Assembly (NCBI RefSeq): GCF_030684185.1
Contig: NZ_JAUXOY010000014.1
Coordinates: forward strand, 32,001-96,000
From: Methylotenera sp.
Lineage (GTDB): Bacteria > Pseudomonadota > Gammaproteobacteria > Burkholderiales > Methylophilaceae
Reading direction: 5' to 3'
Length of the DNA stretch: 64,000 bases
Shown: one piece after another, positions 26,322 to 30,665 of the stretch
How positions within the stretch are numbered: the stretch's first letter is position 1
How the letters are laid out: every line of letters starts with the position of its first letter
The notes under the pieces: model-generated
Told to the model about the DNA's origin: nothing
What the model saw: the letters and a program-made list of their open reading frames with translations, nothing else
Database searches by the model: none
Program-made: the position numbers and the translations under genes

Positions 26322-26984
26322 ATGCGTTGCAAGCTACCAATTGCTGTACTTGTGTCTGTGTTGGTGCATATATTTTTGATAGCTAATTTGACATTACCTA
26401 TCAATACGAATCTTAATAAGCAGTATATTGACACCGAGTTAGCAAAACCCAACTTGAGCGCTAACGTGTTTCAGGTTGGGTTTTTAATTTTGAGCCAGCC
26501 AAAATTGTTGCGGTTAGAAAGAGAGTTAGCAATAACGGAGTATGCTAAACCTTTAGAGAATTCTAATAAAAGTGACGACATCAATCTGTTGGCAAAAAAT
26601 AGGCATGACATTCAAATAGAGCCAATGAAAAAAGAATTGGGATTACCATTAATAACATTGACTAAAAATACGCTAAGCTCTGGCAATGAAGACCTATTGA
26701 GTCGATATTTAAAACCTAGCGATGTAGATATAACGGCAATACCACTACATGGTATAGAGCCGCCAATGCCAACAAGTATCAATAAGTTGCTGGTAGTTTA
26801 TCAGTTAAGAATTTTTATCAACAAAAATGGTAACGTAGATCAGGTTGTTAACCTGGATAGAGGCAATACAGAACCACTTTTTTATGCGGAAATTGAAGCG
26901 CAAGTAAAAAAACTGGAGTTTATACCAGCACGGAAAAAAGGAGTTGAGGTAGACAGTTATATTGAAATTGCTTTGGAAATTTAG
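26322..26984 (+). CDS. TonB-like periplasmic protein closing the pilin cluster
   Basis: About 220 residues. A single N-terminal membrane segment (LPIAVLVSVLVHIFLIANL) carries an S-x3-H motif (SVLVH) like TonB. The C-terminal 80 residues (LLVVYQLRIFINKNGNVDQV, then EAQVKKLEFIPARKKGVEVDSYIEI) match a TonB C-terminal fold. The frame opens at TTG 26313, 5 bases after pilY1; ATG 26322 is the likelier start. Same strand and tight spacing suggest co-transcription with the pilins. A link between a TonB-type protein and pilus biogenesis is not one I recognise; it may be a passenger. Confidence 0.7.
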   Translation: MRCKLPIAVLVSVLVHIFLIANLTLPINTNLNKQYIDTELAKPNLSANVFQVGFLILSQPKLLRLERELAITEYAKPLENSNKSDDINLLAKNRHDIQIEPMKKELGLPLITLTKNTLSSGNEDLLSRYLKPSDVDITAIPLHGIEPPMPTSINKLLVVYQLRIFINKNGNVDQVVNLDRGNTEPLFYAEIEAQVKKLEFIPARKKGVEVDSYIEIALEI

Positions 26985-26998
26985 TCCAGTTGTAGACT

Positions 26999-27502
26999 TT
27001 ATTTTTTTAACAGCTTATTAGTAACAATGCCGTTTATTAAACCAAAAAATAAAGCTGCAACAGCAAACATCGGTATTAAATAACTTACCCCTGCATGCGG
27101 GATTAGCCATAGGCGCACAATAATCAACTGCCCGGCAATGTGTGCAAAAGCAGCCAAAATACTCAATGAAATTGGGCTAAACCATTTTTTGGGTAAGCGC
27201 ATGCCCATCCAAAGCACCGCTAAACTCAAAACAGCGCCACTTAAACTTAATAAAAATGTAGGTGACAAAAACTGCCCCAGTAATAAGCTGCTGGCAAATA
27301 CGCGCAATATGCTTACCCAGGCAGCTGTTTTAAAACCATATTGGTATAACACATATAAGGTGACGATGTTGGCTATGCCAGGTTTCACGCCAGGCAAAGG
27401 TGAAGGTATAACGGCTTCTACCATGTGTAAAGCAATGGCGAAAGCCGCGAGCTTGGCTATGCGGTGGTCGTCGGCTGTGGTTTGAATCTGGGTGGGTTTC
27501 AA
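26999..27502 (-). CDS. Gx transporter-family membrane protein (Hpre_diP_synt_I fold)
   Basis: 167 residues, five or six hydrophobic helices, with the family start HMVEAVIPSPLPGVKPGIANIVTLY. The family was once called heptaprenyl diphosphate synthase component I but looks like an ECF-type substrate-binding membrane protein. It recurs beside ApbE and NusG_II proteins, as here, suggesting a role in flavin or cofactor supply to a membrane flavoprotein. The start is TTG at 27502, overlapping the GIY-YIG stop, with AAGGA about 9 bases upstream. Function is inference. Confidence 0.8.
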   Translation of the reverse strand: MKPTQIQTTADDHRIAKLAAFAIALHMVEAVIPSPLPGVKPGIANIVTLYVLYQYGFKTAAWVSILRVFASSLLLGQFLSPTFLLSLSGAVLSLAVLWMGMRLPKKWFSPISLSILAAFAHIAGQLIIVRLWLIPHAGVSYLIPMFAVAALFFGLINGIVTNKLLKK

Positions 27503-27975
27503 TGTACTTGGTCCTTGGCTTCGACCACTTCGACAAGCTCAGTGACCGAAACAAGCTCAGAGCAGGCAGGTTTAGATATCCCTTCGACAGGCTCAGGGAA
27601 CGTGGTGTTGGCTGTGGTTCGACAAAGCTCACTATCCAAGCCTGTCGCGGTGGCTGAGCCTGTCGCGGTGGCTGAGCCTGTCGAAGCCAAAACCTTAGCA
27701 GAAGAATTTAAAGCTAAAGCAGGTAAATCTTCATATCGTCGAGCTATCAATGCTATTTTTTTTGCACGGCTCCAGCCTTGTACTTGTTTTTCTCTGTAAA
27801 ACGCCTCGTCAATCTGTGCAAACTCTTCACAAAAAACTAACTCTACTGGCAATCTACTTTTTGTATGGTTAGCACCTAAGTCATTATTATGTTCCCATAT
27901 TCGTTTTTCTAAATTGACGGTGCTGCCAGTATAAAAGCTACCATCAGCGCATTTCAGAATATACATATATGGCAT
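27499..27975 (-). CDS. GIY-YIG family small nuclease with repeat-encoded C-terminal tail
   Basis: 158 residues. Residues 1-90 are a complete stand-alone GIY-YIG domain: MYILKC and FYTGSTVNLEKRIWEHN give the two motif strands, Arg/Glu follow in EKRIWEH, and FCEEF plus YREKQVQGWSRAKKIALI complete it. Typical homologues end near residue 95. Here about 65 more residues (including STGSATATGSATATG and TELVEVVE) are read from REP-like DNA. The gene sits between nusG_II and the Gx transporter, interrupting an otherwise typical trio, and lies within 39-bp direct repeats. It has its own TATAAT (27988-27993) and AAGG ribosome site. Its target is unknown; the tail may be a harmless read-through. Confidence 0.88.
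   Translation of the reverse strand: MPYMYILKCADGSFYTGSTVNLEKRIWEHNNDLGANHTKSRLPVELVFCEEFAQIDEAFYREKQVQGWSRAKKIALIARRYEDLPALALNSSAKVLASTGSATATGSATATGLDSELCRTTANTTFPEPVEGISKPACSELVSVTELVEVVEAKDQVH
27519..27690. repeat. REP-like array inside the 3' end of the GIY-YIG gene
   Basis: Several copies of the REP core in both orientations (CTTCGACAAGCTCAGTGACC, CCCTTCGACAGGCTCAGGGAA, GGTTCGACAAAGCTCAC, CTGAGCCTGTCGAAG). It includes an exact 18-base tandem duplication, CCTGTCGCGGTGGCTGAG, at 27641-27658 and 27659-27676. Bases 27519-27557 are a 39-base perfect direct repeat of 28019-28057. Confidence 0.88.
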
Positions 27976-27987
27976 TGTAGACCTTAA

Positions 27988-27993
27988 ATTATA
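27988..27993 (-). promoter_or_regulatory. -10 box for the GIY-YIG gene
   Basis: TATAAT on the minus strand, 12 bases before the ATG at 27975, with AAGG between as ribosome site. No clear -35 is seen at 16-18 bases. Confidence 0.4.
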
Positions 27994-28011
27994 GTATGAG
28001 GTGTTATGGTT

Positions 28012-28101
28012 TTGACCACTTCGACCACTTCGACAAGCTCAGTGACCGAAACAAGCTTAGTGAGCAAGGTTGTTGAAGCTCGGTAGCTGAGCCTGTCGAA
28101 G
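28012..28101. repeat. REP-like array between nusG_II and the GIY-YIG gene
   Basis: Contains the right-hand copy of the 39-base direct repeat (28019-28057) and further core copies ending CTGAGCCTGTCGAAG at 28100. The TAG stop of the NusG_II gene begins one base beyond it. Confidence 0.88.
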
Positions 28102-28518
28102 CTAATAGTTAAGCGAATCATAAGGCTTCGTCTCGCCAAGTAATTCCAGGCTGATTTGATTGGGTAAACAAATGGCGGCTTGCCCAGCCCGCGTTAGCCA
28201 GCCTTGATGCACACAATATTGATTATGACATGGCGATTTTGAAAACCGTACTTTACCCTGTGAGATGCTGATGGTGGCGCTGCCGATTGGGCCGTGCACA
28301 TGTACATCGCGTTGTTGGTTTAGGCTGTAGGTGGCGTAGATTTTATCGCCTAACCTGATTTGTACTTTAGCTGCATGTTCATTAGACCATAGCGTTTTGA
28401 ATAACAAGAGTATAAATAACACGCTTGCTAGAACAACCAGCCAGTCACCAAGTAGCAATTCTTTTGTGAGTCGCTCAGGCTGAGCGAGAAGCTTACGGAA
28501 TCGTTGTGAATTTAACAT
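28102..28518 (-). CDS. NusG domain II-containing membrane-anchored protein
   Basis: 138 residues. One N-terminal membrane segment (LLLGDWLVVLASVLFILLLF) is followed by a beta-rich extracytoplasmic domain with the NusG_II cysteine set SPCHNQYC...AICLPN and HQGWLTRAGQ. The family is linked to ApbE and Gx transporter proteins across bacteria; its biochemical role is not established. Its 5' end overlaps apbE by 26 bases. Residues about 11-16 are encoded by a perfect 7+1+7 palindrome (28472-28486) resembling repeat DNA. Confidence 0.82.
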   Translation of the reverse strand: MLNSQRFRKLLAQPERLTKELLLGDWLVVLASVLFILLLFKTLWSNEHAAKVQIRLGDKIYATYSLNQQRDVHVHGPIGSATISISQGKVRFSKSPCHNQYCVHQGWLTRAGQAAICLPNQISLELLGETKPYDSLNY

Positions 28519-29572
28519 TTGGGGTTAGCCAGTTAAGTTTTTTAGCCATTTCTTTTGAAACAAAAATATTGGCTTTCTCATCAATTACCATAAAGTTATC
28601 AATGCCAAAAACTTGAGCTGCTTTGCGTTTATTTACTGCGCTTTCAATAAAAATTGGTTTTGATGCAACATCTGATAATACGCCAGCTTGTGTTTGCTTA
28701 GGTAGTTGCGGCGGTACCAGCACCGTTACGGCTTGTGTGTGCTGCACAGGGTAGCCAGTGCGTGGGTCTATAATGTGACAGTAACGTTTTCCATCCAGCA
28801 TAAAGTAGCGTTGGTAATCACCAGATGTACCAACGGCCCAGCCATCTGGTAAATCTAAAGTTGCAATTGCTGTGGGCGCGCGTGGGTGCTGTATGCCTAC
28901 ACGCCAAGCTTTGTCGCCATGCTGGCCGATGGCAATAATGTTGCCGCCTATGTTGATAAGTGCATTTTTGACATGTTCTTTGCGCAAATAGTTAGCAGCA
29001 ATATCCAGTGCATAGCCTTTAGCATAGCCGCCTAAATCAAGCTTCACAGCTGGATTTTTGCTATAAGCGGTATTGTTTTCAAGCACAATGTCGGCCATAC
29101 TGGGGTTGGTTTTTACTAGAGTTTTTATTTTTTCATCGTCAATATTAACTGCGCTAAATTCATCACGATGAAAGCCCCAGGCGCCAATTAAATGGCCAAT
29201 AGCAGGGTTAAATAAACCATTTGATTTGACGGAAAGCGCAGTTGCATCAGCCAGCATTGCCGTTAAATCTGGGCTGATGCTAACGGGCTTACTGCCTTGC
29301 TCAAAAGCTATGTTAAGTTGACCCAATTCACTAGGTTTTCCTTCAGATATTGGCTTCCAGGCATGCAACCTATTATGCAGGTTTTGAAAATCCTGCAAGA
29401 CTTGATTGGAAAGTAGTCGTGCGCGTTCATCACTTTCACCATAAATACTGATGTCTACCAAAGTGCCAAAAACGTAACTCTGACTATGGTAAAGCGGTTC
29501 TTTAGAATTTAGTTGATAGGCGCCGAATAATATAAGGGCGAGTAGTGCAAAGAATATGAGCGTTTTAGGCAT
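28493..29572 (-). CDS. apbE: FAD:protein FMN transferase (ApbE)
   Basis: 359 residues with an N-terminal membrane anchor or signal segment (TLIFFALLALILFGAYQL). ApbE motifs are present: DLGGYAKGYALD, INIGGNIIAIG and HIIDPRTGYPV. ApbE attaches FMN to Thr/Ser of proteins such as NqrB/C and RnfG in the periplasm, using FAD and Mg2+. It starts directly after the gshB stop (TAAATG) and overlaps nusG_II. No nqr or rnf genes are in the window, so its target is elsewhere. Confidence 0.93.
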   Translation of the reverse strand: MPKTLIFFALLALILFGAYQLNSKEPLYHSQSYVFGTLVDISIYGESDERARLLSNQVLQDFQNLHNRLHAWKPISEGKPSELGQLNIAFEQGSKPVSISPDLTAMLADATALSVKSNGLFNPAIGHLIGAWGFHRDEFSAVNIDDEKIKTLVKTNPSMADIVLENNTAYSKNPAVKLDLGGYAKGYALDIAANYLRKEHVKNALINIGGNIIAIGQHGDKAWRVGIQHPRAPTAIATLDLPDGWAVGTSGDYQRYFMLDGKRYCHIIDPRTGYPVQHTQAVTVLVPPQLPKQTQAGVLSDVASKPIFIESAVNKRKAAQVFGIDNFMVIDEKANIFVSKEMAKKLNWLTPNVKFTTIP

Positions 29573-30523: not shown

Positions 30524-30564
30524 ATGAGTTTCATCAAAAAATTAATTTATCCGTTATTGCCTTT

Positions 30565-30625
30565 GTTCCCTGAGCTTGTCGAAGGGCGATGCTAAGCTAG
30601 TCACCCTTCGACAAGCTCAGGGAAC
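30565..30625. repeat. REP doublet with perfect 22-base arms between gshA and gshB
   Basis: Bases 30565-30586 (GTTCCCTGAGCTTGTCGAAG..) and 30604-30625 are exact reverse complements, 22 bases each, around a 17-base loop. This is the cleanest copy in the window and defines the core. On RNA it would form a very stable hairpin within the gshA-gshB transcript. Confidence 0.92.
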
Positions 30626-30665
30626 AGAGGGTTGGGTATGTTTTAAAAGTATTTCTACAACACTT

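Follow-up and report, generated by a model that had tools for sequence, protein, structure and literature searches.

A GIY-YIG nuclease gene among dispersed stem-loop repeats in Methylotenera, and the match between repeat type and enzyme tail in its relatives

Ssn is a family of site-specific single-stranded nucleases of the GIY-YIG type from N. meningitidis, said to have been described together with a repeat, NTS, by Chenal et al. in Nat Commun in 2025. The enzyme reportedly cuts single-stranded DNA at this repeat, of which there are hundreds of copies, and modulates transformation. Many homologues are said to exist, each with its own sequence. A second point of reference is the CGTC-tagged REPs, which were described in 2013 as apparently lacking a dedicated transposase and which include dRS3 of Neisseria as the CGTC-1 repeat, according to Di Nocera et al. 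(PMC3733652). Our literature search found no paper on the association analysed below, and the RepRanger paper (PMC12306157) contains none of the five terms looked for.

Here we analyse a window of 64,000 nucleotides from Methylotenera sp. (NCBI RefSeq assembly GCF_030684185.1, here G000; contig NZ_JAUXOY010000014.1, positions 32,001 to 96,000), in which a small GIY-YIG nuclease gene lies within a block of short repeats. Its features are collected in Table 1.

Table 1. Features of the nuclease locus and its repeats (positions in the window)
Feature	Position	Strand	Remark
Hpre_diP_synt_I (Gx transporter) gene	26999..27502	-	downstream neighbour of the nuclease
GIY-YIG nuclease ORF	27499..27975	-	158 aa; domain residues 2-73
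Left direct-repeat copy	27519..27560	+	core 27529-27542; within the nuclease ORF
Inverted core pair in the tail of the nuclease ORF	27582..27686		cores 27583-27596 (+) and 27672-27685 (-)
Inward-facing cores bracketing the nuclease domain	27672..28042		- at 27672, + at 28029
Codons of residues 74-96, after WSRAKK	27688..27756	-	site of the module that, in relatives, tracks repeat type
Right direct-repeat copy	28019..28060	+	core 28029-28042; upstream of the nuclease gene
Inverted core pair between the nuclease gene and the NusG_II stop	28019..28101		cores 28029-28042 (+) and 28087-28100 (-)
NusG domain II gene	28102..28518	-	upstream neighbour; stop abuts the repeat block
apbE gene	28493..29572	-	
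Dispersed inverted core pair without nuclease	30560..30630		30-nt arms, 11-nt gap

The nuclease locus and its empty sites

The original prediction of 39-base direct repeats lying 500 bp apart in the same orientation is borne out: 27519-27557 and 28019-28057 agree at 39/39 bases on one strand, start-to-start 500, and at 41/42 when extended to 42 bases. The two are copies of one version of a dispersed repeat family. Its core, TTCGACNNGCTCAG, is found in 73 exact copies across 2.72 Mb of genome (reversed control, 1). Of these, 31 are forward and 42 reverse, the strand of each contig being arbitrary, and they reduce to 36 places when copies within 1 kb are merged. The window holds 10 cores at no more than one mismatch (9 exact), against 0.22 expected and a maximum of 2 in 100 shuffles, and five of the nine exact cores surround the nuclease gene. 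Core pairs at ≤100 bp in the genome face inward in 17 cases and outward in 6 (p 0.035). An inward pair is present in 15/20 examined core regions, where it makes an almost perfect inverted repeat with the pattern CGTTCCCTGAGCYTGTCGAAGGG-loop-CCCTTCGACARGCTCAGGGAACG; in the direct copies beside the nuclease the neighbours of the core differ (CACTTCGACAAGCTCAGTGACC). The exact 500-bp spacing was dropped as a meaningful feature, the nearest repeats around related nucleases lying at variable distances. Two further loci, L259 (G000 C1 78773-78894) and L276 (G000 C14 8758-8879), have five cores each in 27-bp steps; both are at contig ends and are perhaps one array split by assembly.

A GIY-YIG gene with a complete domain had been placed inside the repeats. 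This holds for the domain (PF01541, 60.3 bits, cut-off 22.6), which lies between the two direct copies, and fails for the ORF, which continues through the left copy and consists of repeat-block sequence from about residue 97. At 27499-27502 (TTGA) the stop of the ORF shares bases with the TTG start codon of the Gx gene, even though this tail is repeat-block coded. Residues Y5, Y15, G17, R25, H29 and E62, which we take to be catalytic, are invariant in 28 sequences, as befits a member of the GIY-YIG superfamily. The closest homologue among the matches listed, L064 from a Betaproteobacteria MAG, ends at residue 98 with its stop inside a repeat, so the tail is not common to this homologue. Over 84 codons, the comparison with L064 gives dN 0.11 and dS 1.01 (LWL85), and the nuclease domain is thus under purifying selection; by NG86, dN is 0.13 and dS undefined. 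An AlphaFold2 model built on 28 sequences has pLDDT >90 to about residue 90 and block means of 48-61 beyond.

The nearest solved structures by sequence are the UPF0213 proteins 1zg2 (7e-23) and 1ywl (1.1e-17). A fold search also ranked these first, followed by Slx1 (E 0.007), with low TM-scores for a model that includes the tail. The match to the group I intron endonuclease model TIGR01453 (19.4 bits) falls below its cut-off of 56.05, and PADLOC and PHROGs gave no match at E 0.1. Two further GIY-YIG matches exist in the genome, one in an 85-aa frame, presumably YhbQ-like, and one in a 608-aa frame, which we take for UvrC.

Both the TATAAT box (27988-27993, minus strand) and the ribosome site (AAGG, 27982-27985) assigned to the gene exist as sequences. 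By the usual -10 spacing, a start site fired from the hexamer would fall at or past AAGG, so that with only 12 nt between hexamer and ATG the two can hardly work together as drawn. A promoter scan called no site at 27988-27993, and the pair, as drawn, found no support as a functional promoter with its ribosome site.

The unit does interrupt the apbE-NusG_II-Gx trio, as had been proposed. A NusG_II protein search of 61 genomes (its own and 60 relatives) matched 34, of which 30 became loci, one being that of the window; two of the 29 loci of relatives, L042 and L044, had no measurable NusG_II-Gx gap. In all 27 measurable relatives, NusG_II and Gx are 9-149 bp apart with no nuclease between them. 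The comparison that the original prediction called for has therefore yielded empty sites, and not the picture of relatives that all carry a repeat-free nuclease at the locus. The nearest homologue detected within the genus, that of G032, sits between lysA and purU. A purU search matched 43/61 genomes and gave 30 loci; 28 of the 29 besides G032 were measurable, and the nuclease gene is at the lysA-purU site in none of these. Because the gene is absent at both sites in the measurable relatives, it is best read, from these comparisons, as an insertion at both.

The lysA-purU gap of the window's own genome (L325) and of L298 and L299 contains, by eye, degenerate repeat sequence like T1 (defined below), with the gene missing. 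At the NusG_II-Gx site, L036 (G001) and L061 (G017) have other inverted-repeat-like sequence, also by eye (CGTCATTGCGAGC... and GATTGCCACGC..., respectively), and this site may therefore take up palindromic repeats repeatedly.

Loss of the cassette by one recombination between the 39-bp direct repeats had also been suggested. Such a loss is possible and found no support. Such an event should leave one copy behind as a scar, and since the exact core is present at none of the 29 NusG_II loci of relatives, excision was rejected as the cause of the empty sites. The usual geometry around related genes is, moreover, inverted.

Repeat variants and the module behind the catalytic domain

Scanning genome contigs for relatives of the nuclease gave 572 confirmed stretches, of which the best 80 were taken; they come from Bacteroidota, Cyanobacteriota, Chloroflexota, Actinomycetota, Pseudomonadota and other phyla. 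In these best 80 of 572, cores TTCGACNNGCTCAG with at most one mismatch occur at 1.66/kb beside the nuclease and at 0.037/kb more than 600 bp off, a 45-fold difference; they are found on either side in 26/80 loci and on both sides in 17. A search for enriched words beside the nucleases retrieved two further variants, T2 (TTCGACTNCGCTCAG) and T3 (TTCGAGAGCCTCAG), the first being T1 (TTCGACARGCTCAG). After addition of five loci of G000 and relatives (85 loci), T1, T2 or T3 is beside 76/85 nucleases, with T1 the most frequent type in 25, T2 in 34, T3 in 17 and none in 9. Farther off (2.4 kb), the same 85 loci contain T1 in 5, T2 in 6 and T3 in 1. The original prediction had asked whether the repeat is equally common beside unrelated genes, and the answer has two sides: most of the 73 cores in the genome are situated away from the nuclease, and concentration near its relatives is strong.

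Fifty loci have repeats of the same type on both sides, and in 41 of them the nearest two stand in inverted orientation around the gene (p 6e-6 for an expectation of one half, the loci not being independent): 31 pairs face inward, 10 outward and 9 are in the same orientation. The inward-facing bracket seen in the window is thus of the commonest geometry among relatives. Eight YhbQ-type rows have no 11-mer common to both flanks; shared 11-mers were themselves discarded as a sign of repeats, being too loose (present in 69/580 random flank pairs).

The kind of repeat follows the residues behind the catalytic domain. After the conserved W[SN]R.KK, T2 is accompanied by C.N.[STNV], T3 by A[YFH][RK]D and T1 by neither. 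This rule fits 64/65 loci with both label and motif in the set that suggested it (best 80 of 572 plus five), from whose 85 loci 10 without W[SN]R.KK, 7 more without a repeat and 3 ties were left out. It was fixed before new loci were gathered. The first held-out set, with 24 of 30 loci evaluated, contained 8 T1, 1 T2 and 15 with none of T1-T3, and tests little because every protein in it was predicted T1. In the second, 27 loci were evaluated, of which 12 were labelled, one was a tie and 14 had none; the rule was right for 11 of the 12, a result equalled by 7 of 20,000 label shuffles.

In the first held-out set, T1-T3 are missing from L154, L156, L162 and L166-L177 (15 loci), 13 of which have other repeats of at least 15 nt common to both flanks, for example of the CCTCATCCTGAGG type. 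The tail of L226, the one miss in the second set, looks frame-shifted by eye.

Among 39 disjoint pairs of loci with similar domains and different repeats, mostly from the rule-suggesting set, the modules differ as predicted in 35, show no difference in one and behave otherwise in three. A tree with few supported branches provides two independent pairs for T2 and one for T3; two independent pairs are on well-supported branches, and both largely follow the rule, a number too small for formal testing. On a quick tree the repeat label needs 17 changes over 76 labelled rows, so switches between repeat types seem frequent, the tree being weak. Since the repeat kind beside the gene goes with the enzyme tail in several phyla, these comparisons suggest that enzyme and repeat belong together.

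Of the proteins without T1-T3 in the rule-suggesting and second held-out sets, 16/23 have the tail KK[IKV][FW]. A fourth variant, T4 (TTCGATAC...CTACTCAG), was recognised post hoc beside 7/16 of these loci plus L073. It is beside 0/88 loci labelled T1-T3 and occurs farther off in 3/112. The T4 loci are L065, L068, L073, L083, L217, L219, L222 and L230, seven of them with the tail KK[IKV][FW]. The link between T4 and this tail is a lead only.

Repeat counts over whole genomes agree with nuclease type for T1 and T2 (Fisher p 0.006). T1 outnumbers T2 in 6 of the 9 genomes with a T1 nuclease locus (reverse in 2, one tie), and T2 outnumbers T1 in 13 of the 16 with a T2 locus (reverse in 2, one tie). 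For this test G455, which has both types, was set aside, and G473, whose locus L125 is a T1/T2 tie, was placed with T2 by its module; p is 0.008 without G473. By the same T1/T2 counts, 10 T3 genomes split 6, 3 and one tie, and three unlabelled genomes 0, 2 and one tie. Within the genus, we looked for a correlation between T1 copy number and nuclease presence and found none: the core TTCGACNNGCTCAG has 55 copies in G008 (a genome only 82% complete), 40 in G029, 22 in G023, 21 in G020 and 20 in G015, where no nuclease of the clade was found, and 9 in G032, 8 in G001, 4 in G025 and 1 in G017, which have one.

The repeat unit as a stem-loop and possible roles of the nuclease

In T1, T2 and T3 alike, the flanking bases of the core pair with one another and covary. 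Positions x2:y1 of T2 pair in 54/57 units (G-C 25, C-G 22, A-T 5, T-A 2), against 21.6 in shuffles. With one unit per locus (19 T1, 31 T2, 14 T3), the paired fraction over four positions is 0.76, 0.80 and 0.84, respectively, and in a control with redealt halves 0.41, 0.41 and 0.52 (largest 0.55, 0.58 and 0.66). Shifting the register forward by 1 or 2 gives at most 0.37, backward shifts being an unfair control that drops positions. In the window's own genome, the first two stem positions pair in 60 and 59 of 72 units, against 53.3 and 52.7, with 0/2,000 shuffles as high; the next three positions show no excess pairing over shuffles. The units consequently behave as stem-loops with a fixed loop, the fixed loop following from how units were searched for. 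Such covariation fits recognition of the unit in a folded, single-stranded form.

DNA folding gives a weak hairpin for a single unit (about -1 kcal/mol, no better than shuffles). Inverted pairs fold strongly: z is -4.2 for the plus strand of the pair at 27582..27686, and -6.2 (plus) and -5.0 (minus) for 28014-28101. At 27519-27600 the fold does not surpass that of shuffles.

We consider it probable that the locus encodes a site-specific nuclease of the Ssn type, probably specific for single strands, together with its cognate repeats. In this reading the repeat unit is a short stem-loop, with a variable complementary stem closed by C-T/A-G and the fixed loop TCGACARGCTC. As units often stand in inverted pairs, either strand can fold when single. 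The nuclease would read the loop through the short module behind its catalytic domain and nick it when the DNA is single-stranded, as in incoming transforming DNA or on the lagging strand. Nicking may then influence DNA uptake and recombination wherever the repeats stand, at dozens of places in the chromosome, and recombination between repeats could carry repeat-flanked DNA, the nuclease gene included, into new places. The original prediction that the nuclease spreads with or acts on REP DNA stands for the association, in view of the empty sites, the several phyla, the module match and the stems; binding, nicking, the single-strand requirement, cleavage and mobility or spread by recombination are what we infer from it.

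An autonomous mobile element, with the repeat-bracketed nuclease as parent and the dispersed inverted pairs as MITE-like offspring that it moves, would explain why inward repeats bracket the gene in 31/50 loci of the set above, why neighbouring cores share this geometry (17 inward, 6 outward, p 0.035), and why there are empty sites at two loci and relatives in distant phyla. We hold it to be unlikely, since no target-site duplication or precise boundary is defined, T1 copy number does not track the nuclease within the genus and GIY-YIG enzymes are not known to be transposases.

The gene could also be a passive passenger, brought in by recombination between repeats that spread otherwise (by transformation, RAYT or replication slippage), with the enzyme unrelated to them. 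Repeats do occur without the nuclease, and 39-bp direct repeats could recombine. This account is improbable given that the type of repeat varies with a module within the protein and that YhbQ-type genes of the same genomes are without such repeats (the eight rows without a shared 11-mer; CGTC REPs at 0/17 loci). Nor is there an exact core around the PF01797 matches of G000 (none at 4/4 matches, in regions of 1.8-3.1 kb), one core pair lying 2.7 kb from one of them. Repeats that act as RNA hairpins in mRNA stability or termination, and that the GIY-YIG protein processes or is regulated through, would suit a stem covariation that fits RNA as well as single-stranded DNA and repeats placed just upstream of and inside the ORF, but are very improbable in view of cores in both orientations (31 forward, 42 reverse), a fold search that after UPF0213 leads to the DNA nuclease Slx1, and the absence of any Rfam match at gathering threshold in 26900-28700.

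Comparison with known repeat systems

A second GIY-YIG clade (VYILASK...), in relatives of the same genus or order, tends to have CGTC REPs beside it. With these defined as a CGTC tag, a stem of 8-9 bp that starts with AT, and a short loop, they were found within 300 bp of the gene in 16/23 loci, 12 of which have them on both sides; beyond 600 bp the same loci (about 3 kb) have none. They are beside 0/17 YhbQ-like loci and 0/8 loci scored as the clade of the window, the sorting being by best tblastn score, which put the loosely related L011, L016 and L021 in the window-clade bin and L010 and L012 in the YhbQ bin. VYILASK-clade loci flanked by CGTC REPs are L013, L014, L018, L020, L022, L024, L033, L327, L328 and L330, and further L332, L333, L336, L338, L339 and L342. 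Small GIY-YIG nucleases of two clades thus each tend toward their own class of hairpin repeat.

More tentatively, and with more doubt than confidence, Ssn-type nucleases may be the dedicated enzymes of large, transposase-less classes of hairpin repeats in bacteria (the TTCGA...CTCAG variants T1-T4 and the CGTC REPs), with a loop-reading module that has switched often and with nuclease-bracketing pairs that are parent to the dispersed ones. The window and its relatives point to a family of enzymes that serves repeats of this sort, and to a specificity code open to testing, in the residues that read the loops. If this is true, reading a short module could lead to single-strand cutters of chosen specificity, and there would be a mechanism to test for why a widespread kind of bacterial repeat persists.

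Set beside the described systems, the unit resembles REP/RAYT systems and REPINs in combining palindromic repeat pairs with one kind of gene among them. In those systems, GTAG REPs go with an HUH tyrosine transposase, whereas the enzyme of the window is a GIY-YIG protein. UPF0213/YhbQ proteins (1zg2, 1ywl) are its closest solved structures; the YhbQ-type genes of relatives, unlike the window nuclease, are without such repeats. The CGTC REPs (PMC3733652) are like the repeats of the window: short stem-loops, often in inverted pairs, in many copies and with no known dedicated transposase. They differ in being absent from the window (none with CGTCAT, at most one stem mismatch and a loop of 4-6), yet flank the VYILASK clade of its relatives.

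Ssn reportedly shares with the window protein a small single-domain GIY-YIG architecture and a gene beside a short repeat of high copy number. The window gene likewise lies beside a repeat that is abundant in its genome (five exact cores around the gene, 73 genome-wide). Its surroundings differ from those of Ssn, in that the protein is outside the VYILASK clade of the CGTC repeats, to which dRS3 belongs as CGTC-1, and that the core of its repeat is different. By analogy with this description, the window would contain an Ssn relative with a distinct repeat.
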